Assembly (NCBI GenBank): GCA_023647555.1
Contig: JALRLY010000215.1
Span: 1-23,416 of the forward strand
Direction of reading: 5' to 3'
Origin: Pancytospora philotis
Lineage: Eukaryota > Microsporidia
Length of the DNA: 23,416 bases
Shown here: one piece after another, positions 1,585-19,218 of the stretch
Position numbering within the stretch: position 1 is the stretch's first letter
Layout: every line of letters begins with the position of its first letter
Notes under the pieces: model-generated
Database searches by the model: none
What the model was told of the DNA's origin: nothing
The model's input: only the letters and a program-made list of their open reading frames with translations
Program-made: the position numbers and the translations under genes

Positions 1585-3144
1585 TTATTCCTCTGTCTCC
1601 GGCTGGCTCTGAGGATTACTCGGATGCACCTCCGTTTTGAGTTGGACTAACACGTTACACATGCGTTCGAGCAGTTCCGAATCTGATTGCGACTTGTCGA
1701 ATTCAACAGCTAAGATTACTTCTAACATACCCCTCATGCGTTCAATCGGCTCAGTATTAGAATACGGTTTTTTAGATTGAGGGGCCGCGTTCGTACGAGA
1801 ATGCTGGGGAACACCACCGACAGAGGTTGGGGTACCTTCAGCGGTCACAGCACTATAGGTCCTCTTGCGGCTCGGGCCAGGCGCATTATCATTACTAGTA
1901 ACCGTATCGTCTGCGCTCATAAGTTTGAAATCAGGATTAATAGCATTATCAGAACCTACCATATCTCCATCATTAGATTCAGTCTTATTAGCGGTCAGTT
2001 TATCAATGCCATCAAAACCCAGAGCAGAAATATTCTTGGCAACAGCTATGATCGCGCCATCAATTAACTCACGGCTTGCTGCACGATCACGGAAAAGGGT
2101 TCCAAGAGTCTTGAAGGTATAATCGGCATTCTCAACCAAATATTTTACATAGGACTCAAGTCTATGTCTAGATCGGCACCTTTGGACATCGTCAACATGC
2201 TTCCGTAAAGCTTCCAGTTCACCAGTGACTTGATTCTGAACCGCCCGCCAGGATGAGCCCCAGCCTTCATAATCTAACTCCGGATACACATAATGCACAT
2301 GCTTATAAATATCCTCAACGTATGTATGCTTTATGCAGCTTAGAGTAATTTTCCTTGATATTTCTTCTGGGATCTTATGTGCGTGTGCAAGCCCTTTTTC
2401 ACAGAAATCCCTATAGCTCTTAACAATATCATCACTAATTGCCTTCGGATTAGTAACAGTACCTAATATAACATTGGATATAGAGTGTTTAAACCTTCTT
2501 CCAACTGCAAATTTCGAGCGGTTGTCCAATTCCTCCCTAAGTGTATTCAGCTTCGCTATCGCGGCGTCTTCGAGACTGTCGAGGCTTTTATCCTCAAAAT
2601 CTTTGCCAAATTCTGGAAACTGCCTCCATAAACGATCTATTGCCGCTATAATTTCACCAAAATCATAACACATCGAATCATATAAACGCATTAGAGAAAG
2701 GATATAATCACGGCTCATACGCAGCTGTTCTGATGGCGAAAATAATCGCTCAAACTCTTCGGTGCGTTCGTTGATCAGCGCAACTAGGTCTACTGCGCCT
2801 TCGCGTTTTTCAAAACTATCTTCTTCATAGGCATGTTCCACATAAATTCTGAGCATTTTTTCAAGCAGCTGTTCCTTCCATTCCCTATAATTACCTACCG
2901 CAGTAGTATTATACCCATCTACCTGCAGCGGGTTGTCACCACGAATCGGTTTAGCAAGACACGTAATCTTTTGGGTGAAGCGTTCAAAGTCATGTGGCTC
3001 GTAGCTCTTGCCGCTATCGTTGGCGGGTAAAATACCTACACTAACCAATAATGCACAATCGTCCTTTGTTAATAAGCCGGCCCGGCGCCACATGTACGCA
3101 GCAAAGCATTGCGCGATGCATGTGAACGTAACTGTATAACGCAT
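1585..3144 (-). CDS. Family A protein, copy A2, complete
   Basis: This complete 519-residue paralogue of A1 belongs to a family I do not recognise. The open frame extends upstream to 3276, but the ATG at 3144 is preferred because CCC directly precedes it, AAATTT lies just before that, and the protein then aligns with A1 from its first residue (MR....FTCIAQC). The conserved block LAKP.RGDNPL is at residues 63-73. Residues about 75-400 look mostly helical and charged. Residues about 415-485 are polar, low-complexity and probably disordered, with a basic SRKR patch, followed by a short helical tail and a Pro/Glu-rich end. The first 20 residues could be a weak signal peptide or anchor. Codons are A/T-rich compared with the neighbouring housekeeping genes. 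An exported parasite protein is inferred; a nuclear protein is an alternative because of the basic patch. Confidence 0.85.
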   Translation of the reverse strand: MRYTVTFTCIAQCFAAYMWRRAGLLTKDDCALLVSVGILPANDSGKSYEPHDFERFTQKITCLAKPIRGDNPLQVDGYNTTAVGNYREWKEQLLEKMLRIYVEHAYEEDSFEKREGAVDLVALINERTEEFERLFSPSEQLRMSRDYILSLMRLYDSMCYDFGEIIAAIDRLWRQFPEFGKDFEDKSLDSLEDAAIAKLNTLREELDNRSKFAVGRRFKHSISNVILGTVTNPKAISDDIVKSYRDFCEKGLAHAHKIPEEISRKITLSCIKHTYVEDIYKHVHYVYPELDYEGWGSSWRAVQNQVTGELEALRKHVDDVQRCRSRHRLESYVKYLVENADYTFKTLGTLFRDRAASRELIDGAIIAVAKNISALGFDGIDKLTANKTESNDGDMVGSDNAINPDFKLMSADDTVTSNDNAPGPSRKRTYSAVTAEGTPTSVGGVPQHSRTNAAPQSKKPYSNTEPIERMRGMLEVILAVEFDKSQSDSELLERMCNVLVQLKTEVHPSNPQSQPETEE

Positions 3145-3475
3145 GGGTAAATTTTTCACCGTTTTTTTCTGTGCGGAAAAAGATATGTAATGGCCAGCTA
3201 CAATAGTGATGTAATACACACTGCCCATCAAATATCGCAGTATACAATTCATGCCTTTATCTTTATATGCTTGCATAATTAATTCAACTTCTGTTGATAA
3301 CTGAAAGGGATAGGCAAGTCCTCAACGGTCTTTCCATATGAGGCACAGCGACTTTATGAAATATAGGAATATAATAAAGCTTCACCGATACTTTAATCAT
3401 CTCTAGACAGGCTGCTAAGTATGCTATTTAATCCGTATGCACACAAAGCGCAAAATCGTTCATAAACCGCCACAA
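3145..3475. other. Spacer holding the A2 promoter
   Basis: The A2 start signals lie at 3145-3157 (minus strand: GAAAAATTTACCC, then ATG), with an A-tract up to about 3180. The rest is the 3' side of the gamma-tubulin complex gene. No gene or RNA is seen. Confidence 0.5.
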
Positions 3476-5236
3476 TTATCCATCGCACTGTAGGAAATCG
3501 CGGAGGCTGTACAGATACGTGTTTTCGAGGGAAGCTCCCGCAGAACTATAGAACTCGGCGAGCGAGGCCTGTATCTCGCCGTCGTCCAGCACGCCCGTCT
3601 TGCCGGCCTGCACAAAGGCCTTGTCCATGTAGAACAGCAGATACTCGATGCGCTTGGCCTGCGTGTTCAGAAACAGCGCGTCCATGATGGAGTCGAGCTG
3701 CCGGTTCAGCCGCGCGCGCAGCACGTCCATGGCCAGCGTGCCCGCGTCCCACGCCTCGAGCACCTCGGCCGCCCGGAACTTGGAGATCGCCTCGTTGAAG
3801 ACGTAGAAAATCAGCCGCTGCACGAAGTTCGAGTACTTGAGCGAGTTGACGCGCCGCACGAGGTGCTCGACCTTCTTGAGCTTCCACAGGAATTTGTAGA
3901 TGTAGGCGAGCTTGAGCACGAACTCCTCATCCAGCAGGAAAGTCACGGGGTAGTCCATGCGGCAGTACAGGCCGAACGCCTCGGTGAGCTCGCTCCCGGC
4001 GGCATCCATCCCGCTCTTCACAAAGATATCGATGTTGGCAGCCAGCGGGTTCCCGGGGAAGGCGTCAGCCAGCGCAGCCTCGAGGATGGCAAGGGCGTCT
4101 TTGCGCGTCGAGTTCCTGGACTGCTTGAGCGAGGCGAACAGATACTCGATGAAGTCGCCGCGCTTGCCGAGGAACACGGCCCGGATAAAATCGAGCAGCG
4201 CCCCGATCCGGTGCTTCTCTATGAAGTGCGAGAATATGAGACCGTTCGTGTAGCGCAGCATTGCATCCACCTTTGCAGCGGCGTCCTTCCGGGAGAGATC
4301 GATGGACTTGGCGAGCTGCGCGATCTCTGCAGGATGGCCCGTGTGTCGAAGGAAGCAGACGTACTTTCCGATGTACGCAATGCGCTCTGCCAGGGCCTTG
4401 TCGATGATGGACGGGATCTTCCCGTAGTCGAGGGCATGGTCCTTGACAAAAAACTCGGCATGCGGGTCGCAGAAGGCGCCGCTTAGCATGTACGAGACCG
4501 CGCACTCGTTGTGCACGCGGTAGGCCACATCGCCGTAGCGCTGCAGCTCGGCAAACAGGGCGCGGTGCCTCTGCTCGGCGGCGCAGTGCTCGCTGTTCGG
4601 GGACTTGATGCGCTTGGCCTGCGCTATGCTCGTATCCTCTCCATTCGATGCGTCGGTGATCAGATTATTCACGTGCCACATGTCCCTGAGCTTCACGAAG
4701 AGCGGGTACATGGCCGCGTGGAACCGCAGAAAGTCGCGGTCGGCGGCCACCACCTGCCGCTCGTACTCCCGGATGGTCGGCTCACAGGCCTGCAGGAAGA
4801 ATGCGTGGGTCTGGGAGCGCGGCGCTGCGCTCTCGATGCACAGCTGCTTGTAGCGCAGCGCCGCCTCGTAAATGCGCTGGAGAACGTGGTAGATGTGCAC
4901 GGGGAGCGCTTGTCTGACGGCCGGAAGGTTCGCCACCTGCGGGACGGGGAACCCCAGCGCAATCCTGTGGAGCGCCAGGCGCAGCTCCTCCTCGAGGCCC
5001 GGCGTAGAGGCGCAGAGAGACAGCAGCACGTAGACGGCGCGCTGCGCAGCGCTCCCGGGCGGCAGCTTCTTGTAGAGCGCCAGTGCCTTGGCAGACTGCA
5101 GGCCGAGCGGGCCCTCGATGTGCATCTGCTGCGGCGCGACCGGAACGGCGTATTTGCAGAGCGACTCGATGAACTGCGGCGACGGATCGGCCGGGTGCAT
5201 GAGGGCCTTTGCGAGTTTCTCCACCAGCCTCTTCAT
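3476..5236 (-). CDS. SPC98: Gamma-tubulin complex component (GCP3/Spc98-like)
   Basis: This 586-residue protein belongs to the Spc97/Spc98 (GCP) family, which binds gamma-tubulin to build the gamma-tubulin small complex at the spindle pole or spindle plaque and nucleates microtubules. Seen in the sequence: EFFV at 261-264; the segment IPS..D..LAERIAYIGK at 274-291, matching the family's IPSF...A.KIL..GK region; FLGKRGDFIEYL at 355-366; and the second GRIP block at 428-460, with DYPVTFLL followed by YKFLWKLKKVEHLV. The wording FLW, IGK and GDFI..L is closer to GCP3/Spc98 than to GCP2/Spc97 as I know them, so the subtype is moderately secure. It is shorter than fungal Spc98, with little N-terminal extension. 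The start is fixed by CCC touching the ATG and TTTATAA about 25-33 bp upstream. Codons are strongly G/C-ending. Confidence 0.88.
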   Translation of the reverse strand: MKRLVEKLAKALMHPADPSPQFIESLCKYAVPVAPQQMHIEGPLGLQSAKALALYKKLPPGSAAQRAVYVLLSLCASTPGLEEELRLALHRIALGFPVPQVANLPAVRQALPVHIYHVLQRIYEAALRYKQLCIESAAPRSQTHAFFLQACEPTIREYERQVVAADRDFLRFHAAMYPLFVKLRDMWHVNNLITDASNGEDTSIAQAKRIKSPNSEHCAAEQRHRALFAELQRYGDVAYRVHNECAVSYMLSGAFCDPHAEFFVKDHALDYGKIPSIIDKALAERIAYIGKYVCFLRHTGHPAEIAQLAKSIDLSRKDAAAKVDAMLRYTNGLIFSHFIEKHRIGALLDFIRAVFLGKRGDFIEYLFASLKQSRNSTRKDALAILEAALADAFPGNPLAANIDIFVKSGMDAAGSELTEAFGLYCRMDYPVTFLLDEEFVLKLAYIYKFLWKLKKVEHLVRRVNSLKYSNFVQRLIFYVFNEAISKFRAAEVLEAWDAGTLAMDVLRARLNRQLDSIMDALFLNTQAKRIEYLLFYMDKAFVQAGKTGVLDDGEIQASLAEFYSSAGASLENTYLYSLRDFLQCDG

Positions 5237-8167: not shown

Positions 8168-9271
8168 ATGTCGGAACTTATGTTTAATGGAAAGGTCACA
8201 CTCAGCACGGCGTCATCCGTGATAACAGTCAAGGTGGACGTGATCAGGCACGATGCGTCGCTCGAGGTGCGGCTCATCGACACGTCCAACATCTTCACGC
8301 TCTACATCTGCACGATCACGCAGTCCGACTTCTACGTCCTGAAGCGCGACCAGGACATCCTCGTGGACTACGAGCGGTTCGTCAGCATCCTCGCGAGCCT
8401 CTTCCACTGCCTGTCGGTCAGCAAGCTCAGCGCGACCTTCAACGACGGCGTCCTGCGCTTCATCGAGAACGGCGAGTTCCGGAACATCTGCAAGCTCGAG
8501 CTGCGCTTCGCGAAGCCGGACGACACGCAGTACCGGCGCTACCTGGCGGACCTGCTGGCGCGCATGGAGGGCGACAACGTGAAGCTCATCAAGGAGAACG
8601 CGGTGCTGCGGGACCGCTGCGCGAACGGCGACCGCGAGCTTAAGGACCGGCTGCGCGCCACCGAGGCCGAGATGGCTGAGTGCCGCCGGCGCTACGAGCT
8701 GCAGAACAAGGACCTGGCGGGGCTCGAGGCGCGGTGCCGCGAGAAGGAGGACGAGCTGGCGCGTCTCAGCGCGCGGCTGTTCGAGATGGAGGGCGAGAAC
8801 TCGCAGCTGAAGTACGACCTGGAGAAGTACCAGCGCGACAACAGCCAGAGCTTCCGCGAGCAGCTGAAGGCGCGCGAGGACGAGCTCGAGGCGAGCCTGA
8901 AGGAGGTGAAGGTCGCGAACGAGATCATCAAAGAGATTCGGCGGGAGAACAGCGAGCTCAAGGGCCAGAAGCTGGAGAGCCTGAGCAGCCTGCAGAAGGA
9001 GACGGAGAAGAACGAGGAGCTGGGCGAGAAGTTCGGTGCTGTCAGCAAGAAGTACAAGGCGCTCGAGGATAAGTACAAGGCGCTGAAGGAGGACAGCCGC
9101 GCCAAGGCGAGCAAGCTGCAGGAGATCGAAAAGTCCAACAAGGTGCTGAGCAAAGAATTAGAGAACGCAAAGAATGTATATAACCACTTCTACTCCAAGA
9201 AGGTCGACGAGGCGAACGACAACTATTCTGAGACGTTTACGTTGCGCCCCGAGTCTCCCCCGCCGAGATGA
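8168..9271 (+). CDS. SAS6: SAS-6 homologue (centriole cartwheel protein)
   Basis: A 367-residue protein with a globular head and a long coiled coil. Residues about 8-128 match the SAS-6 head: LEVRLID..N.F.LY at 32-46, the PISA-type block SDFYVLKRDQDILVDYERF at 53-71, and ENGEFRNICKLELRF at 100-114. Phe104 aligns with the head-to-head Phe of known SAS-6 proteins (F145 in Chlamydomonas, F131 in zebrafish), which lets dimers join into the nine-fold ring. From about 130 to 350 there are almost only heptad-like charged residues, a parallel coiled coil shorter than in human SAS-6, then a short polar tail ending PPPR. GGG touches the ATG, supporting this start. A possible AATAAA lies three bases after the stop. 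SAS-6 templates centrioles and basal bodies, structures not reported in microsporidia. The relatives XRCC4, CCDC61 and SAS6-like are weaker matches by motif wording. Confidence 0.88.
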   Translation: MSELMFNGKVTLSTASSVITVKVDVIRHDASLEVRLIDTSNIFTLYICTITQSDFYVLKRDQDILVDYERFVSILASLFHCLSVSKLSATFNDGVLRFIENGEFRNICKLELRFAKPDDTQYRRYLADLLARMEGDNVKLIKENAVLRDRCANGDRELKDRLRATEAEMAECRRRYELQNKDLAGLEARCREKEDELARLSARLFEMEGENSQLKYDLEKYQRDNSQSFREQLKAREDELEASLKEVKVANEIIKEIRRENSELKGQKLESLSSLQKETEKNEELGEKFGAVSKKYKALEDKYKALKEDSRAKASKLQEIEKSNKVLSKELENAKNVYNHFYSKKVDEANDNYSETFTLRPESPPPR

Positions 9272-9661
9272 TTAATAAATTAGAGTTTTACTGGCGCATT
9301 TTTGCTTCTGTGCTGCACTGATATTGTGTGATTAATCGCTAACAGGGCTGATCCATCGCTCGACGCAGCCCCTCGCCGCTATTCAAGTGGCGTGCTCTCT
9401 GACGTTGTTCGGACACGATCGACTGGGTGTACGTTTTACGGATCTGGGTATTTTTATGCTATGTCCGAGCATTAATGATGGTGTTTACCCGCCCTCCTAC
9501 ATAATGACATGCTGTATGATGTTCATCTGTGCTACATGCCATGCCGTGTTTTCGCTAGACCGACGGCGAAGTGCAGCGCTGCGCTATTTTTACACGATGA
9601 CTCTCGTATTTCAATTATAACACATCATCTGAAGTTTATAAAAGCTCTGCTAAGAAAACCC
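9272..9661 (+). repeat. 5' flank of family B copy 1 (flank copy S0)
   Basis: The spacer opens with AATAAA just after the SAS-6 stop. Around 9400-9460 it shares a stop-free frame with the flanks of copies 2 and 3: the wording GHDRLGVRF here corresponds to KHGRLGICF near 12750. The right end holds TTTATAAAA (9635-9643) and CCC (9659-9661) before the ATG. It is the most diverged of the three flanks. Confidence 0.5.
9635..9661 (+). promoter_or_regulatory. TATA-like box and CCC start signal of B1
   Basis: TTTATAAAA at 9635-9643 lies about 19 bases before the ATG, and AAAACCC touches the ATG. The open frame runs upstream to 9509, but these signals and the signal peptide that follows place the start at 9662. 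Confidence 0.6.
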
Positions 9662-11140
9662 ATGCGCATTGCTTTAGCAGTAGCATTGATACAAGGTCTA
9701 CTGGCCCACACCGAAGCCTATGGGAATGACAATTTCGTTCGCGGGGTGGATGCAATCAAAGCCCCATTCAAATCTATGCGCAAAGGAGTAGCGTATGCCG
9801 ACCTTGATGGCCCGCTCAACATCCTCCGTGGGTATCGGCTCGCCAATGACGATATGATCGCGAAGAAGCGCATGTATACGTCTCCATTCCGTGCAAAATA
9901 CACATGCGAGTACAACCCTGCTTCATCCGACGGCCCACGCAATTGGACGGAATACGCACTTTCCTTGCTACCGGAGGATAGCCCGGCTACGGCGTATCTG
10001 TATAAGTACTATGCAGCGCTGGAGGCGATGTTCGACGTCGTTCGCTACGGTGACATACCCAAAGTTGAAAAATCAAGCACATTGGATACGTACTTTGCGG
10101 TATACAGGCATATGAATGTTCGCACGACCCTGCTATCCATAATGCTAGTGCTCGCTGGAGGCGGCGATATTCAGGTTGTATACGAAAAGAACGAGTACGG
10201 CGATGACACAGTGATTACTTGTAGGGTGGGCGATTATGAGTTGCTAAAAATTGATAAGCTAGCCCTTGAGAATGCAGGCTGCCCATCTGGCGCTTTCAGC
10301 AATCTGTGCGCAATCATAAAGTTCTTCCATGACTATGGCGGGCCAAGAGCAGCGAGCATCGCGGGCTACGACCTGCACTACAGCGATACCCCGGTTTTTC
10401 TCGCACAGGCATACGCCGCAGAGTTCTTCAGTGAGCCCGGACGCGGGCGCGAGATACTGGAGGCCGTGGATGAAATTCTTGCGAGAAGGTACGACGGCGG
10501 TGATCTCGACGTAATGTGGAACCGCTTCTTTACAGTAGAAGCGAACCCACTCGATAGCTACAGTGACACATTTGAAGCGCTTAGAGTGGTGGACAGCTTA
10601 GCTCTATCGGAATATCGTTCGCCTAATATAAAGATCAGCCTCAGCAAAAGCGAACACGCGCTCTTTATTGCAGTTAAAAAACGCGTTTTCGCTACAGAAG
10701 ACTCGTTTGGCGCGGTGGCACAACAAGCGGTAAAGAACTTTTTGGGCCACTTCTCCGGCTCGATCATGTTCGACCACCCCCTCATCGCGGAAGTGACGAT
10801 GGCAGCTAATCCATCGGCATTTTACAGCGCACTCACGCGCTGGGTTGCCTGCAGGCCTATGCGCTCGCCGCGCGATAAGCTGGCAGTGGTCGATCAGCTT
10901 ATACCCGCATTCAAAAAGCTGCTTAGGAGCGAGCAGAACAGGCACGATCGTAGAGCTTATCTGTCTAGCCATCCTTTGGTGATTTTCATTACCAATGTGC
11001 TAGGCACAATGAAGGATACCAAGTGCTACATTGCAGATAGATTTTCCGAGCTTATGTGGTGCTACCCCGCTGAGTACTATGAGATCTTTCCGTGCATGAA
11101 AACGTACGCCAGCAGATCGCGCAGCGACGAGGATATGTGA
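9662..11140 (+). CDS. Family B secreted protein, copy B1 (frameshift-shortened)
   Basis: A 492-residue protein of an unrecognised family with four members in this window. Residues 1-19 (MRIALAVALIQGLLAHTEA) form a signal peptide. Conserved blocks follow: DGPLNILRG at 49-57, AKKR near 67-70, YTCEYNPASSD at 80-90, and LVLAGGGDIQV at 162-172. The rest looks helical. Compared with B3 (769 residues), B1 stops about 277 residues early: near 11111 one base is missing relative to B3, the last 15 or so residues are read out of frame, and even the B3-like frame meets TAA within about ten codons, where the duplicated spacer begins. It keeps a good promoter and a long intact frame, so it may still make a shortened secreted protein. 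Export to the host is inferred. Confidence 0.8.
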   Translation: MRIALAVALIQGLLAHTEAYGNDNFVRGVDAIKAPFKSMRKGVAYADLDGPLNILRGYRLANDDMIAKKRMYTSPFRAKYTCEYNPASSDGPRNWTEYALSLLPEDSPATAYLYKYYAALEAMFDVVRYGDIPKVEKSSTLDTYFAVYRHMNVRTTLLSIMLVLAGGGDIQVVYEKNEYGDDTVITCRVGDYELLKIDKLALENAGCPSGAFSNLCAIIKFFHDYGGPRAASIAGYDLHYSDTPVFLAQAYAAEFFSEPGRGREILEAVDEILARRYDGGDLDVMWNRFFTVEANPLDSYSDTFEALRVVDSLALSEYRSPNIKISLSKSEHALFIAVKKRVFATEDSFGAVAQQAVKNFLGHFSGSIMFDHPLIAEVTMAANPSAFYSALTRWVACRPMRSPRDKLAVVDQLIPAFKKLLRSEQNRHDRRAYLSSHPLVIFITNVLGTMKDTKCYIADRFSELMWCYPAEYYEIFPCMKTYASRSRSDEDM

Positions 11141-11589: not shown

Positions 11590-12597
11590 ATGCGAGGATT
11601 ATTAGCAGCAACGTTGATGCAGGTACTGCTTGCCTATGACAGTGTAGATTTCGCTCATGGGATAGATGCTATCAAAGAACCGTTTAACTCTGCGCGCAAT
11701 GGTGTGGCTCGCGTCCGCCCCGATGGCCCGCTGAATATCCTCCGTGGGTATAGGTTTGCCACCGGCGCCGTGATCGTAAAGAAGCGTCTGTCTTTGCTTT
11801 TATTATCTGCGAAGTATGAGTGCGAGCACAGTCCTGCCTCACCCGACTGCACATCCAGTTGGATGGGGCGCGAACTCCCCTTGCTTGCGGAGTACAGCCC
11901 AGCTATGGTCTACCTGTGCAAGTACCATGCGGTACTGGAAGAGATGTTCGACGTTTATTCCTCTTATTGCAACCGTGTGGTTGAAAATTCACGCTCATTG
12001 AATATATTTTTTGCAATGTATAGAAGCGTAGAAGCCCGCGCGAACCTGCTCGCTGTACTGCTTGTGCTTGCCGGGGGCGGCGATATCCAGGTTGAGTACC
12101 ACAAGGATAAAAATGGCGACGACGCGGTGATCGCTTGTAGGGCCGGCGACTATGAGCTGCTGAGGATTGATAAGCAGGACGTTAACGGCACTTGCTATAT
12201 TCCCACCCTTTTTGGCAGGCTGCATACAATTATAAAATTCTTCCACGAGTATGGTGGGCCGAGAGCAGAGAGAATTGCGGAGTATAACTTGCAGTACAGC
12301 GAAACCCCGATTTTTGTCGTGCAGGCATACATCGCTGAGTTCTTCACCGAGGATGAAAGCGGGCGCGAGATAATAGTGGCCGTGGATGATGTTCTCGCGA
12401 AAAGGTACAAAGGCAAGGACCACGACGTAGTGTGGAGCCGCTTTTTCACGAAGAGTGCAAGTGCGTTTGACAGTTACGCCGACGTGCGTGGAGCGTTACA
12501 AGCGATAGACAGCATGGCGTCCACGGGAAATCGTGCGCCTAATGAAGGGTCCCTCTTGGAGAGGGCGCCCGCGTGCTTTTTACAGCGTAGTAATTAA
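11590..12597 (+). CDS. Family B secreted protein, copy B2 (broken by frameshift and deletion)
   Basis: A 335-residue open frame with a signal peptide (about residues 1-18), DGPLNILRG at 45-53 and LVLAGGGDIQV at 158-168. It aligns with B1 and B3 until residue 320 or so. At about 12560 one base is missing relative to B3, so the last dozen residues are out of frame. The B3-like frame meets TAG at 12588-12590, and the sequence then jumps directly into the duplicated spacer. About half of the B3 protein is missing. CCC touches the ATG and TTTATAAA lies about 20 bases upstream, so the promoter is intact. It is probably a decaying copy; a secreted N-terminal fragment cannot be excluded. Confidence 0.7.
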   Translation: MRGLLAATLMQVLLAYDSVDFAHGIDAIKEPFNSARNGVARVRPDGPLNILRGYRFATGAVIVKKRLSLLLLSAKYECEHSPASPDCTSSWMGRELPLLAEYSPAMVYLCKYHAVLEEMFDVYSSYCNRVVENSRSLNIFFAMYRSVEARANLLAVLLVLAGGGDIQVEYHKDKNGDDAVIACRAGDYELLRIDKQDVNGTCYIPTLFGRLHTIIKFFHEYGGPRAERIAEYNLQYSETPIFVVQAYIAEFFTEDESGREIIVAVDDVLAKRYKGKDHDVVWSRFFTKSASAFDSYADVRGALQAIDSMASTGNRAPNEGSLLERAPACFLQRSN

Positions 12598-13051
12598 ATT
12601 TACTGAAGGTTAGTATATTTTTGAGTTTAAACAATGATCTTGTCAGCTAAATGCCTCTTGCTCGCTTCCGCTCTGCTGCCTCCGCCGGTTGTTCTGCGGA
12701 CTAGTGCCCGCGTCGTCATTTAATAGACATGCTCTTGAGCGCCTTTTTAAACATGGCCGTCTGGGTATCTGTTTTGATAAATTCGCGTATTTCCACTTCG
12801 CGCATGTTGTATTTGTGGTATTGCGTAACTGCTTGTTCTACGATACGTCTTACGCAATGGTGCTCACTCTTGCAACAAAATCCTGGCTTCGCATATTGAC
12901 GTGAACATCAAAATAGCGAACAACACAGCGACTTATCGATTTAACAAAGCCAGCGACAATGTCGCAGCGCGGTGCTATTCCCATGAATGTGCTTTACAGT
13001 ACTAATACCAAACCACCATCGATGATTTGCGAAAAATTTACTGTAAACCCC
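12598..13051 (+). repeat. Duplicated spacer S2 (between B2 and B3)
   Basis: Homologous to S1 at 11141-11589 over nearly its whole length. It holds a stop-free frame from 12689 to the TGA at 12902-12904 whose wording matches S1, but with no usable ATG at its start. At the right end, GAAAAATTTA (13031-13040) and CCCC (13048-13051) precede the B3 ATG; this is the AAATTT type of promoter rather than the TATA type of B1 and B2. Confidence 0.65.
13031..13051 (+). promoter_or_regulatory. AAATTT element and CCCC start signal of B3
   Basis: AAATTT lies about 13 bases before the ATG and CCCC touches it. These place the start at 13052 rather than the upstream in-frame ATG at 12959, and the signal peptide begins exactly here. 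Confidence 0.6.
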
Positions 13052-15361
13052 ATGCGGTGTGCTCTAGCAGCGGTCTTGGTCCAGGGACTACTTGCCTATC
13101 GCAATCGTGGCTTTGGCATCATGGTGAATGCCATCACAGCCCCGTTTCGATCCGTGCGCAACGGCAAGGCGTATGTGAACCCCGATGGCCCGCTGAACAT
13201 CCTCCGCGGGCATCGGCTCGTCAGTGACAATATAATCGCGAAGAAGCGTCTGTTTTCGCCCCCGTTCCGCGCAGAATACACATGCGAGTACAACCCTGCT
13301 TCATCCGACTGCACATGGAGTTGGACGGGGCAGGAGCTCCTCCTGCCTGCAGACGATAGCCCAACAGCGCTTTACCTGAGCAAGTACTATGCAGCAATGG
13401 AGGTGCTGTTTGACATCGTCCGCGAAGATGATAATTTTACTTTCGAAAAATCACACATATTGGATACATATTTTAACGAACACGAAAATCTGAAGACACG
13501 CTTGAATCTGTTCGCTGTAATGCTCGTGCTCGCCGGTGGTGGCGATATTCAAGTTGCATACGACGAGGATGTGTATGGCGATGACGCAGTGGTTACTTGT
13601 AGGGTGGGCGCTTATGAGCTGTTAAAGATCGATAAGTATGCCCTTGAGGATGCAGAATATCCACCGGACCTTTTTAGCAGCTTGTGTACAATCATAGAGT
13701 TCTTCCACGAGTACGGTGGGCCAAGAGCAGCGGACGTCGCGGGCTTTGGCCTGCACTACAGCGACACCCCGAGTTTTCTCGCACAGGCTTACATCGCTGG
13801 GTTCTTCAGCGAGCCTAAGCTCGGGCGCGAGTTACTTGTAGCGGTAGATAGAATACTCGCGAGAAGATATAAAGACAGTGACTTCGAAGCAGTGTGGAAG
13901 CGCTTTTTCACAAAGGGCCCAAACCCTTTCGACATTTACATTAATGTGTTCGAAGCGCTCGATGCGATGGGCTGTTTAACCCTCCGGAGATATCTTTTCC
14001 CCGATGATGAGGTCACACTAGACGAGGGCGACCGCGCATTCTTCACTGCGTTGATAAGGCACTCCCCCGCCACGGGAGGCTCATTTTACGCCGTGATGCA
14101 GCAGTCTATGAAGAGTTTCTTGGTTCTCTTTACTGGCCTAGCTTCGTCTGATACCCTCGTCGCAGATGTAGAAATAGCGGACAGTCCAATGGCATATTAT
14201 ATTGCACTCACACGCTGGTTGGCCTGCAGGCCCATGGGCTCGCTCGGCGACAAGCTGGCGGCGATTGACCAGCTCATGCCTGCGTTCATAAAGCTGCTTG
14301 AGGACAAGCGAAACGGACCCGAGCGGAGCGCCAAGCTGGCCCACCATCCGCTGGTGCTCTTTATCGCCAACGTGCTCGGGACTGTGAGTGATACCGAGTG
14401 GCACATCAGAGAGCTGTTCTTCGAGATCATGCGCTACTGCCCCGCCGAGCGCGATGAGCTCTTCCCCTGCATCAAAATTCCCGCCGACCAGTTCGCACAG
14501 CTGCAGGAACTGGTGGATGAGTGCCCCGACAGCGATCATCCGCTGTATTGCGTAATGTACTCGAATGTGTCCTTGCCCAACACAATTTGTGGCTACTTGA
14601 AGCTGGGCTCTCCAGCTGTCTATGGCTCCCGCGGGGAGAATGAGTTAGCTGATGGGGTTTCCAACTTTCTGAACAATCTCGGCTGCGTAGACGGTGGTCG
14701 CTTGGTTGACTACGTAGTCTCTAGTCTCGTCGAGACGAACCACAGGGAGGGCATGAAGCTGCTGAGCAACTACTACTGCCGGACGGTCGGCGCCAAGGAT
14801 TACGCCCTGCTGCTATCGTGGTTCCGCGTATGCGATTCGTACGGTCGCCATAAAGAGCTGCGCACAATCTGCAGAGCCTGGCAAGACCCGTTTTGCATGT
14901 TGAGCCTGTATCAGACGGAACAGCGCTATTTGCGAACGGATAGGAAGTTTACGCCGCTTTCAAAAAGCTTAGTCAGGAAAATCCTCTCTGAATACTTTGA
15001 TGAGGAGCGCCTAAAGTCGCTTCTGTGGATATACACTTTGTTTGCTGAAAGAGACGCCGATTACGATGCTTTACTGACCATTTTTAAATCCTACCCGCAG
15101 CTTCTTGATGCGAATTATGCAGTTTCGTACGCAAAGGCCACTGCTAGCGCCTACTGCAGAATCATCAGGGATTGGAACACCAGCGGTAGGCTAGAAGAAG
15201 CCCTATATCTTTTGCCCACCGCGCCGATCAAGCGTTTCATAGGCAGGCTGAAAGATCTTTACAGTGAACAGCAGTATTGTGGCGATCAGAACTGTTGCGA
15301 AGCCTTCGATATGATCATGGCTTGGATGGATAATCGCATTGCCGCTCCGCTATCTGAATAA
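13052..15361 (+). CDS. Family B secreted protein, copy B3 (full length)
   Basis: At 769 residues this is the longest of the three tandem copies and the reference for judging the damage in B1 and B2. A signal peptide spans about residues 1-16 (MRCALAAVLVQGLLAY). Blocks: NPDGPLNILRG at 43-53, a Cys-containing YTCEYNPASSDC segment, LVLAGGGDIQV, FFHEYGGPRA, and CRPMGS near the middle. The C-terminal third is shared with the inverted paralogue B4: both have W.DPFC, then LFA..DADY...L..F, ..LLDA.Y, and a L.L.P segment near the end, suggesting helical repeats. The stop overlaps a possible AATAAA. I do not recognise the family; export or cell-surface location is inferred from the signal peptide, lack of other membrane segments and lineage-specific expansion. 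Confidence 0.87.
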   Translation: MRCALAAVLVQGLLAYRNRGFGIMVNAITAPFRSVRNGKAYVNPDGPLNILRGHRLVSDNIIAKKRLFSPPFRAEYTCEYNPASSDCTWSWTGQELLLPADDSPTALYLSKYYAAMEVLFDIVREDDNFTFEKSHILDTYFNEHENLKTRLNLFAVMLVLAGGGDIQVAYDEDVYGDDAVVTCRVGAYELLKIDKYALEDAEYPPDLFSSLCTIIEFFHEYGGPRAADVAGFGLHYSDTPSFLAQAYIAGFFSEPKLGRELLVAVDRILARRYKDSDFEAVWKRFFTKGPNPFDIYINVFEALDAMGCLTLRRYLFPDDEVTLDEGDRAFFTALIRHSPATGGSFYAVMQQSMKSFLVLFTGLASSDTLVADVEIADSPMAYYIALTRWLACRPMGSLGDKLAAIDQLMPAFIKLLEDKRNGPERSAKLAHHPLVLFIANVLGTVSDTEWHIRELFFEIMRYCPAERDELFPCIKIPADQFAQLQELVDECPDSDHPLYCVMYSNVSLPNTICGYLKLGSPAVYGSRGENELADGVSNFLNNLGCVDGGRLVDYVVSSLVETNHREGMKLLSNYYCRTVGAKDYALLLSWFRVCDSYGRHKELRTICRAWQDPFCMLSLYQTEQRYLRTDRKFTPLSKSLVRKILSEYFDEERLKSLLWIYTLFAERDADYDALLTIFKSYPQLLDANYAVSYAKATASAYCRIIRDWNTSGRLEEALYLLPTAPIKRFIGRLKDLYSEQQYCGDQNCCEAFDMIMAWMDNRIAAPLSE

Positions 15362-15362
15362 A

Positions 15363-15620
15363 ATGGGTTATCTCTTTGTGTTTATTTTTTTTGCCTTTCT
15401 TACGGTGTGTCACCATAGATTTGCAATAGCTTTTTACTGCTGGGAAGCTGCGCTGCAGCACCAACTTCTGAATCAGCCTGCTTACCAATGCTGCTGCTCA
15501 CTCGACGCACAGTTTCATTGTCTTAGAAGACGAACGCTAGCAAAGCTTGATAATACCCTTATGCTAATGAAAGAAAATGAATTTACTACTCATTTCAGAG
15601 AATACTGCATCCGGCGGTAG
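15363..15620 (+). CDS. Possible small Cys-rich secreted protein (doubtful)
   Basis: An 85-codon frame begins one base after the B3 stop with a strongly hydrophobic N-terminus (MGYLFVFIFFAFLTVC), which looks like a signal peptide, followed by a Cys-rich middle. Against it: there is no CCC or AAATTT signal before the ATG, it overlaps the 3' end of B4 on the other strand by 26 bases, and no similar sequence occurs elsewhere in the window. It may only be the 3' region of B3. Confidence 0.2.
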   Translation: MGYLFVFIFFAFLTVCHHRFAIAFYCWEAALQHQLLNQPAYQCCCSLDAQFHCLRRRTLAKLDNTLMLMKENEFTTHFREYCIRR

Positions 15621-18600
15621 CGAGCTCTCGACTGTGCGCAGCCACAACATCCTCATAAACGATATTATCTAAATTCTTTTTCCCAACAAGCTCAGACCAG
15701 AAGTTCAAAATGGGTGTGGAGTCGCCAGGTAGATTTTCAAGTGAATGGCCTCGCCATAGCGCAGTGACGAAATCCTTCAACATGCCCACAGGCATTAATT
15801 TCAACTGCTCTCGAGTGGATCTGTCCTTCGACAAGCTTAAGCAATGGGCATCGCAGCACTTGACTAGTACTTTGATGTACTCCCGCTTGTAGTCGGCATC
15901 GAGCAACTCGCTGTACTCCTCAAATACTTCAAGCATCCCCTGGTAGTCAGCATCCGCGGTTGCGAAGAGCGCAAAGATCCGCACGAGCGCCCTTATCTGA
16001 TTTGCTGGAGGCCTCTTGGAGAATATCTTATCGACCATTCCGATGGAGAGCAGCCCGGGCTTGCGGATGTCGCGGAGAGCCGAACAGGCCTGGACGCAGT
16101 CGGTAAGATCACAGAACGGGTCCTTCCAAAGGTCGCAAACGGTGCGAATCTCATTGTAGTGCGCATCGGAAGCCCCACGGGACGACAGAGCAACCCAGCA
16201 CGCCATTTTGCAGTAATCGTTCGCCGATCTATCACGGGGACCAGGCAGGTACTTATTACGCAAGAACTCTAGTCCCTCTCTATCCCCGAGCCTGAAAATC
16301 GCCGCGAGCGCGGGATAGACGCGCTTATCCCAGGGGTCCCTAGCATACTTAGCAAATGGCACTGCGTTAGACTCGGCTATTGCCCACAACTCCTTCAGCT
16401 TACCGAGCAACACATTTGGAACATTGTAATCAGCTAACCAGTCGAAGGAGAGTATTGGCAGGTGCCCCGCGCTCACACTTATGCTCGTGATACCCAAAGC
16501 TTGTTCACCTACACAATAGCGCAGTAGACTGAAGATTAGATTTCGCTCCGTCTCATTTTCAAACCTGGCGTTTCCCAGAATATTGTCGAGCACAGCCACA
16601 AGCGAGCTTTCCGCGAGTACCGCTCCTCGTACTAATCTGCTTGGTCCGGCGCGCACCTCAATCTTCTCCAGCTGCTTCATGAGCGGCGAACAGAGCTGAT
16701 CGGCCGCGTTCAGCACTTCAGTGTAGGAATCCATGGGCCGATGCGCCATCCAGTTGTTCAGCGCGATGTAGCCCTTCAAGGAATTGCTAGGCGTTAGTAC
16801 GTCGGCACCGTACTCAGCAAGCGAAGACGTGTGCTTGCTGGTACCCAAGAAACGCTCGATGCATTCTCGGATCAATGTGCTGAGCAGAGAGCCCTCCCCG
16901 TCGGCCGGCATTTCCGCCAACGCAGCAAAGGACCTGCGCTTTTCCTCGCTGAATTCAACCAGCCGGGGTCCGGGGTAATGGCACGAAGGACGGCCAAAAG
17001 GTGGCATAAGCTCGAGCTCAACCGGATGCGAGGTTGAAGTACCAGCGCTAGAGCGTGAACTAAAAATGATTCTCAGCACGCCGAACAGTTTTTCCCTACT
17101 GACCTCGAGCTCGGTACACTCGATAGCACTGATGCGCATGATGGATGCCGGGTCAAGCAACTCACGAATGCACTCGCCCAAACGCTCGCAGGAAGAAACG
17201 TTGCTCGGATCAGCCAACACCATTTTTATCTGCTCGCGCAACTCCCTCACTGCAGCGACTGGAAGACGAAGCAGCTTTGCCAGGGCCATCAGAAAACTGC
17301 CGAGATCCGCTTCAAGCCATTCATCGTACCCTACACTATTGTGCATCGCAAAAATTCGCACTAGCCGCCCATCGTAATCGTAATTCCCATCGGAAGCCAT
17401 ACCCAGACCCATAATTACGTGCTCCCAGTCATCGCGATATTTGTGCTCGCCGATACGCTCGGGGCGTGGGCAGATAGTCCCAAAGAACTTGCACAGCCTC
17501 TCTGACGCGACAGCGCCTTTTCTGCGTAAGTGTTCGGCGCTGAAACCACCGGTAGTGGGATCAAAGCACAGGCAGCAGCATATATTGAGCAGCGCGGTTT
17601 CTGTGGAATCTGAACGCTCAATGGCAAAGATCCCATCATCATCTTTTTCAGTCGCTCGCATACAGGCTTCACGAATGTGCATACGCGCTTCACGATGAGA
17701 AGGCAGAGGCGCGGCACAGGAATTGAAGACGAAACGCGCACTGGTGACTGCCTCATCAATTTCCGAAAGAGCAGCGTACCTCGCTGAATAGCTCAGGGCA
17801 GACGCTTCGTCGGTCGTAAAGAAGCGCTCCCACAACGGCCTGTTGCTCTCAGCTACGCGCATGTTCTCGAGAAGGGCGCTAGCAGCTGCAAATACGCCCG
17901 CTGCATCTTCTTCACTGTCAATGATCTCACTGACATACGCCTGAATCAGGAAGCCCGGACTGTCTGTGTAGTGGAGACCGAAAGCCTCCACCTGGCTCAA
18001 GTTCTTGCCGCCGTAGCTATCCAAGAAACGAAAGACCGCCAATGCGCCATGTTCAGCCGGTTCTAGAGCGAGTTCGAGCAGAGGCTCAGAATCGCTCGCA
18101 GCAAAGGAAACGATCTTGCGGCAAGACGCACCATTTTCAGGCGTGTGGCGTTCGCGCTCAATATAAATCCGAATATCTCCGCCGCCAGCTAGCACTAAGA
18201 GCAACGCACAGAGCTGGTGACGCACTTCAGGCGTGGAGCAACGTGTAGAGAGCCTCTGAAAGGCCCCATCCATGACAACCGCCCCATCTGCAACCGTAAA
18301 CATGGCTTCGAGCGCTGCGTAGTACTCATTCAAAAACTGCACCTGGTCAGGATCGCCGCGCAGCTTACGGATGCCGTCTTTACGCGCATCCCTCGTGTGC
18401 GTGCACCTACCCCACGCACTGCCATCGTACACACAGCTGTATTCTGTACGCACGAACGCTGCATACTTGCGCTTTTTCGCAACCATGCCGTTGTTAAGCA
18501 AGGGATGTCCGCGCAGGATGTTCAACGGCCCCTCGGGGTTCACGTACACATCACCCGGATACCGCTTAACCAGGGCACGCCCAACGCCGCCCAAGTCCAA

Positions 18601-18654
18601 CCGCGCGCCTACAAGAAGCGCAAAGAAAAAGGCCTTCTCCGACAGTAGTCGCAT
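15595..18654 (-). CDS. Family B secreted protein, copy B4 (inverted, enlarged)
   Basis: A 1019-residue diverged family B member, tail to tail with B3. The start at 18654 is chosen over the open frame to 18696 because CCCC touches the ATG and a signal peptide follows (about residues 1-24, with FFFALLVG). Conserved blocks are NPEGPLNILRG at 39-49, VAKKR.YA, EYSC.Y, LLVLAGGGDIRI, a SYGG..L.....GLHYTDSPGFL stretch, and the C-terminal W.DPFC, ADADY, LLDADY and L.LMP segments shared with B3. It is about 250 residues longer than B3; much of the surplus lies in the middle, in a segment with CCCLCFDP and following residues that I cannot align to B3. Composition is intermediate. Function is unknown; an exported protein is inferred. 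Confidence 0.87.
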   Translation of the reverse strand: MRLLSEKAFFFALLVGARLDLGGVGRALVKRYPGDVYVNPEGPLNILRGHPLLNNGMVAKKRKYAAFVRTEYSCVYDGSAWGRCTHTRDARKDGIRKLRGDPDQVQFLNEYYAALEAMFTVADGAVVMDGAFQRLSTRCSTPEVRHQLCALLLVLAGGGDIRIYIERERHTPENGASCRKIVSFAASDSEPLLELALEPAEHGALAVFRFLDSYGGKNLSQVEAFGLHYTDSPGFLIQAYVSEIIDSEEDAAGVFAAASALLENMRVAESNRPLWERFFTTDEASALSYSARYAALSEIDEAVTSARFVFNSCAAPLPSHREARMHIREACMRATEKDDDGIFAIERSDSTETALLNICCCLCFDPTTGGFSAEHLRRKGAVASERLCKFFGTICPRPERIGEHKYRDDWEHVIMGLGMASDGNYDYDGRLVRIFAMHNSVGYDEWLEADLGSFLMALAKLLRLPVAAVRELREQIKMVLADPSNVSSCERLGECIRELLDPASIMRISAIECTELEVSREKLFGVLRIIFSSRSSAGTSTSHPVELELMPPFGRPSCHYPGPRLVEFSEEKRRSFAALAEMPADGEGSLLSTLIRECIERFLGTSKHTSSLAEYGADVLTPSNSLKGYIALNNWMAHRPMDSYTEVLNAADQLCSPLMKQLEKIEVRAGPSRLVRGAVLAESSLVAVLDNILGNARFENETERNLIFSLLRYCVGEQALGITSISVSAGHLPILSFDWLADYNVPNVLLGKLKELWAIAESNAVPFAKYARDPWDKRVYPALAAIFRLGDREGLEFLRNKYLPGPRDRSANDYCKMACWVALSSRGASDAHYNEIRTVCDLWKDPFCDLTDCVQACSALRDIRKPGLLSIGMVDKIFSKRPPANQIRALVRIFALFATADADYQGMLEVFEEYSELLDADYKREYIKVLVKCCDAHCLSLSKDRSTREQLKLMPVGMLKDFVTALWRGHSLENLPGDSTPILNFWSELVGKKNLDNIVYEDVVAAHSRELATAGCSIL

Positions 18655-18685
18655 GGGGTGCGTCGGCAATCTCTTTAAATTTTTC
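18655..18685 (-). promoter_or_regulatory. AAATTT element and CCCC start signal of B4
   Basis: On the minus strand, GAAAAATTTAAAGAG (18685-18671) is followed by CCCC touching the ATG. The element resembles that of B3. Confidence 0.6.
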
Positions 18686-19218
18686 GATGATGTCATCAGA
18701 TCACAGCAAAATGATGGGCCAAGCGCCGGGCCCCGTGGCGTATGCGCGTCTGCGATCGCCTAACAAGCGCTAAAAGTAATAGTAGGAAGTAAACTAGCTA
18801 GGGGTTACACGTTTTTATTTCTATTCAACCAGTGTGGGCGTGTTCTATACCTGCCGGCGCGCCTTCGCCATTGGAGTGATTCTGCTTGCAGAGCGCTCCC
18901 GAACGAGCTCCGCAGCGAGAGCCGAGAGACGCCCTATTCCGCCGTTTTAAGCGCCGGAATGCCATGATCCTGTACTTCATGCGTATCGAGATGGTGCTTG
19001 CGAACTGCTTTGCTGTGATCCTGTATAGTGTTACTGCGATTTCTGCTCTGCCAGCGGGCGGCTGCTTTAGCAATGCATAGTCCCGTTTAAAGCCGAACAT
19101 GTCGCGGCCTTTCTGATGGCTAACAGCGCTTTGCCTTTAGCGGACACCACCATGGACACCACAATACCTTTTCAAAAGGGGAGATTTAGCATTGCTACGC
19201 CAAAACCAAGAGAAGATC
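18655..19218. other. Spacer between gene C and B4
   Basis: Besides the B4 promoter, these 564 bases hold only weak open frames. One plus-strand frame (about 18963-19080) would encode a hydrophobic 38-residue peptide, and a minus-strand frame of 91 codons (18825-19100) is basic. Neither has the CCC start signal or similarity to the other proteins here. No RNA gene is seen. Confidence 0.45.

Follow-up and report, generated by a model that had tools for sequence, protein, structure and literature searches.

The window analysed here is a 23,416-nucleotide stretch of the genome of the microsporidian Pancytospora philotis (contig JALRLY010000215.1). It contains a gene for a 367 amino acid SAS-6 protein, encoded by an intact open reading frame (ORF) on the forward strand (8168..9271). 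The Pfam profile SAS-6_N matched residues 21-114 of the protein with a score of 67.1 bits (E = 2.3e-18, cut-off 25). When the 3,680,843-base P. philotis assembly was searched with this profile, the ORF at 8168-9271 (+) was the single match, so one copy of the gene was found. The first ATG of the ORF is likely the start codon, because the aligned methionine begins most of the related proteins. The GC content at third codon positions is 0.91, compared to 0.81-0.89 in four conserved neighbours and 0.40-0.64 in six ORFs without a Pfam match. XRCC4 and CCDC61 were ruled out as the identity of the protein by Pfam, PDB sequence and structure scores, and CCDC61 is not the closest structural match. SAS6L, known from the Toxoplasma conoid, was also ruled out: it has a head domain in common with the P. 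philotis protein but has no coiled-coil tail (PMC3697468), whereas a helical coil of 220 residues is predicted here. Judged by these comparisons, the gene is a genuine SAS-6, an orthologue of the protein that builds the centriole hub. The first-pass annotation, made from the DNA sequence, had read the ORF as an uninterrupted SAS-6 homologue with strong codon bias, and all three points hold.

The head domain spans residues 1-116 (8168..8515, +). At one site of the SAS-6 head, a phenylalanine joins dimers into rings. In phmmer alignments, Phe104 of the P. philotis protein (codon at 8477..8479, +) is aligned with the phenylalanine of zebrafish 2y3v and Chlamydomonas 6zz8. The chains 2y3w, 6zzc and 3q0x carry aspartate or glutamate in this column, and several PDB entry titles name mutants at the equivalent site. 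We take Phe104 to be the equivalent of zebrafish F131 and Chlamydomonas F145 (F145 and human F131 are also named in PDB titles), the head-to-head dimer contact. In an alignment of the P. philotis protein with 49 relatives (A3, from which the proteins P0099 and P0100 were left out, as they were from the counts), this position is phenylalanine in all 50 rows. Both the alignments and this invariance agree with the first-pass proposal that Phe104 is the ring residue.

The head is followed by a predicted coiled coil at residues 119-338 (8522..9181, +), with a break at 225-228; the structure model has helices at 119-224 and 229-338. A hydrophobic period near 3.5 was equalled by 1 of 1000 shuffles for residues 229-338 and by 36 of 1000 for residues 119-338, and was not significant for residues 119-224 (equalled by 423 of 1000). 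Sequence and model thus agree with the full head plus coiled coil described in the first pass, with a strong heptad signal only in the second half of the predicted coil. The motif ANEII (residues 250-254; 8915..8929, +) is common to 31 of the 50 aligned rows and to the coils of two animal-type SAS-6 proteins (P0099 and P0100). A profile of residues 235-270 scored 16.4 bits on P0099 and 10.2 bits on P0100, scores that none of the scored shuffles reached (0/352 and 0/300, out of 500 made per target). This stretch was picked after the motif had been noticed, and the match is supportive rather than independent evidence. The best ungapped 14-mer between P. philotis residues 229-338 and an animal-type SAS-6 did not stand out from shuffles, 41 of 60 of which equalled it. 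Coils also match by chance: other Pfam coil families matched up to 32 of the 50 SAS-6 members, and BICD and myosin chains were intermingled with SAS-6 among the matches.

Conservation along the protein is uneven. Mean pairwise identity, computed on the 49 full-length rows of the 50, is 0.57 in the head, 0.73 for residues 98-116 and 0.67 for residues 117-152. It is 0.36-0.38 in the middle of the coil (0.36 for residues 229-328), 0.74 at the coil end (residues 329-346), 0.43 for residues 347-360 and again 0.74 for residues 361-367. The conserved coil end (9152..9205, +) has the consensus LENAQNVYNHFYSKKV, and the last block is a proline-rich C-terminus, PESPPPR (9248..9268, +), in which P361 is kept in 47 rows and E362 in 48. 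We considered the tail as a STIL motif and rejected this, as PESPPP has neither the arginine nor the spacing of PRxxPxP. In centriolar SAS-6 the head occupies the hub, with the end of the coil directed outward; therefore, the two conserved C-terminal blocks are in the position expected for binding an outer partner.

A first search with the SAS-6 head yielded 27 proteins and a profile search yielded 52, each including the P. philotis protein. Fifty of the 52 look microsporidian and two (P0099 and P0100) do not. Named relatives come from Enteropsectra breve, Hepatospora eriocheir, Glugoides intestinalis, Nucleospora cyclopteri, Nosema granulosis, N. bombycis, Encephalitozoon cuniculi, E. intestinalis, E. 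hellem, Ordospora colligata, Vairimorpha bombi and Edhazardia aedis, and the microsporidian origin of the unnamed ones is suggested by similarity. SAS-6_N is present in 50/50 aligned members at E <= 0.01. Nematocida is absent from the named matches, which is no sign of loss, as the search requires shared 5-residue words and scored only the 7,996 candidates with the most words in common. The database name of the N. bombycis orthologue (P0094), 'Laminin subunit beta-4', is evidently mistaken. On this sequence evidence SAS-6 is an ordinary gene for microsporidia, retained in many of them. The conservation bears out the first-pass view that function has been retained. The accompanying suggestion that microsporidian SAS-6 was undescribed does not survive, given the many database relatives and the fact that SAS-6 of Encephalitozoon cuniculi was in print by 2013 (PMC3697468). 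The E. cuniculi orthologue (P0082) is 41-42% identical to the P. philotis protein across 99% of its length but ends in PESSPH rather than PESPPPR. Compared to centriolar SAS-6 (zebrafish 2y3v/2y3w and Chlamydomonas Bld12p 3q0x/6zz8), which is generally about 600 amino acids long (PMC3697468), the P. philotis protein is short at 367, with a shorter head and a conserved C-terminus of its own, and it occurs in a group described as lacking centrioles. P. philotis, a clade IV species, lives as a gut parasite in the nematode Oscheius tipulae (PMC5179134). The main text of PMC10393165, a paper on genomes including that of P. philotis, contains neither 'centriole' nor 'SAS-6'.

The assembly also encodes a SAS-4-like protein of 135 amino acids (L005:1441-1848, minus strand; contig C81 around 72,855-72,917). 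It is 100% identical across its length to P. philotis PAPHI01_0719, annotated as hypothetical, which confirms that the genome is of microsporidian type, as had been claimed. The annotated start of PAPHI01_0719, which gives 206 amino acids, is probably too far upstream, because most relatives begin at an internal methionine. The structure model consists of a helical hairpin followed by a nine-strand sheet, a single-layer beta meander of the TCP type, and in the C-terminal half the predicted fold resembles a portion of the TCP domain of SAS-4/CPAP. SAS-4/CPAP has an N-terminal tubulin-binding (PN2-3) region; ahead of its sheet the 135 amino acid protein has just the hairpin. The Pfam profile Tcp10_C scored 22.1-23.7 bits on the P. 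philotis protein, below the cut-off of 36. Among ten relatives scanned singly, it scored 24.2-30.8 bits in eight and gave no match at E <= 0.001 in two. Two alignments were made, one of 29 of the 48 companion proteins (A2) and one of all 48 (A4). The TCP domain has an aromatic ladder and a glutamate that contacts STIL (E1021 in zebrafish, E1235 in human). As candidates for these, E176, E185, F170, F179, Y157 and Y159 (numbered as in P0028) do not vary among the 48, and the alignments differ by one strand in where they place the STIL-contact glutamate. The protein is unlike SAS-4/CPAP in several respects: zebrafish CPAP has 1124 amino acids, the TCP (G-box) domain has about 20 strands against nine in our model, and the protein falls under the Tcp10_C cut-off where it was scored. 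SAS-6 and the SAS-4-like protein co-occur in P. philotis and, going by the named entries, also in three others: E. breve, Glugoides and Ordospora. A TCP-like companion seems to have been retained beside SAS-6. We found no report of such a microsporidian protein in the open-licence literature searched for SAS-4; the names CPAP, CENPJ and TCP were not searched.

The analysis also covered other parts of the spindle-pole and centriole machinery. Two genes away from SAS-6, the window encodes a gamma-tubulin complex component (GCP; 3476..5236, minus strand; GCP_N_terminal 40.6 bits, GCP_C_terminal 36.5 bits in Pfam), which we give as context only. The assembly has at least three tubulin matches, one of them gamma by PDB match and the other two read as alpha and beta. 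A Polo-type kinase (L006:211-1689, forward strand; contig C41 around 143,830-143,925) has a kinase domain scoring 245.7 bits and one detected polo box, at 24.2 bits against a cut-off of 23 (20 bits in a six-frame search). A coiled-coil protein of 452 amino acids (L007:1378-2736, forward strand; contig C41 around 119,902-120,117) resembles centrosomin CM1 at its N-terminus, with a score of 19-22 bits under a cut-off of 28.5, a level at which two prokaryote control genomes also gave matches; it is a candidate tether for the gamma-tubulin complex. STIL_N, PACT and dynein heavy chain had no match in the assembly, and the control genomes were equally without matches, so their absence stays unproven.

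The remaining ORFs discussed here have no Pfam match. Four lie side by side at 9509-11140, 11590-12597, 12959-15361 (all +) and 15595-18696 (-), share a GPLNILRG motif, have third-position GC of 0.57-0.62 and appear to be an expanded family. Two more at 2-916 and 1585-3276 (-) both contain the words FTCIAQC and RGDNPL and appear to form a second family.

The spindle plaque is the nuclear-envelope disc that replaces the centrosome. We propose that the SAS-6 orthologue probably scaffolds this plaque together with the SAS-4-like protein, as a cut-down centriole module. Sequence and prediction show the identity of SAS-6, its conservation and its co-occurrence with a protein predicted to be SAS-4-like; location, assembly and any contact between the two are inferred. 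SAS-6 dimers would associate by their heads, through Phe104, to form a ring or stack at the plaque, and the conserved C-terminal motifs would sit on the outward coil ends. At or near these ends the SAS-4-like protein would dock and link the scaffold to the gamma-tubulin layer. On this reading the centriole-building module would have shrunk to a scaffold for duplicating the plaque, with no flagella and, within the limits of detection, no STIL. Passages of PMC6559791 report on fly proteins in fission yeast: SAS-6, Bld10 and SAS-4 reach the spindle pole body, Ana2 (STIL) and Plk4 fail to, and Pcp1 brings SAS-6 there via its conserved C-terminal region. The microsporidian set, with SAS-6 and a SAS-4-like protein present and STIL undetected, fits this picture. 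A more specific version, which we regard as doubtful, is that SAS-6 and the miniature TCP-domain protein form a two-protein relic at the core of the plaque. The proline-rich C-terminus of SAS-6 would take over from the missing STIL by docking on the TCP sheet, reducing the link from cartwheel to outer layer to one direct contact.

Three roles had been offered in the first-pass annotation: a relic centriole, a function at the spindle plaque, or re-use elsewhere, for example in the invasion apparatus. Of these the plaque now has the most support, which comes from the published fission-yeast work on fly SAS-6 and from the SAS-4-like protein described here. As the function of SAS-6 rests on family inference, the protein might instead serve in the cytoplasm or in meiosis, without a tie to microtubule organisation; we think this unlikely, as the co-retained TCP-like protein suits a spindle pole better. 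Re-use in the polar tube or anchoring disc, by analogy with SAS6L in the Toxoplasma apical complex, is also distinctly unlikely. With its long predicted coil the protein is of the type of SAS-6, unlike the coil-less SAS6L, and the SAS-4-like protein in P. philotis and three other named species with SAS-6 again suits the spindle pole better; we found nothing pointing to an invasion role, at which no test was aimed. The invariant ring-contact phenylalanine and the SAS-4-like protein would also suit a very small cartwheel or centriole relic overlooked by electron microscopy. We consider such a structure improbable given that just three tubulins were matched (a lower bound), one gamma and the others read as alpha and beta, and given the lack of a dynein heavy-chain match (which the control genomes shared). 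Passages of the ultrastructure papers PMC9114889 and PMC5179134 name plaques, and the word centriole is absent from the main text of PMC9114889. It is extremely improbable that the protein only looks like SAS-6 and comes from a different branch of the XRCC4 superfamily (XRCC4, XLF, PAXX or CCDC61), as no XRCC4/XLF/PAXX family match was better than the SAS-6 match.

SAS-6 is widely taken as a marker of centrioles, a rule that many microsporidian genera break. The presence of a SAS-4-like protein hints at an incomplete loss, in which a small module survived the organelle. If this module does act at the spindle plaque, it would reveal what SAS-6 and the TCP domain can do without a centriole, and would connect centrioles with the spindle pole bodies of the fungal type. 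It would also offer a molecular way into plaque duplication in these parasites, about whose division machinery little is known.
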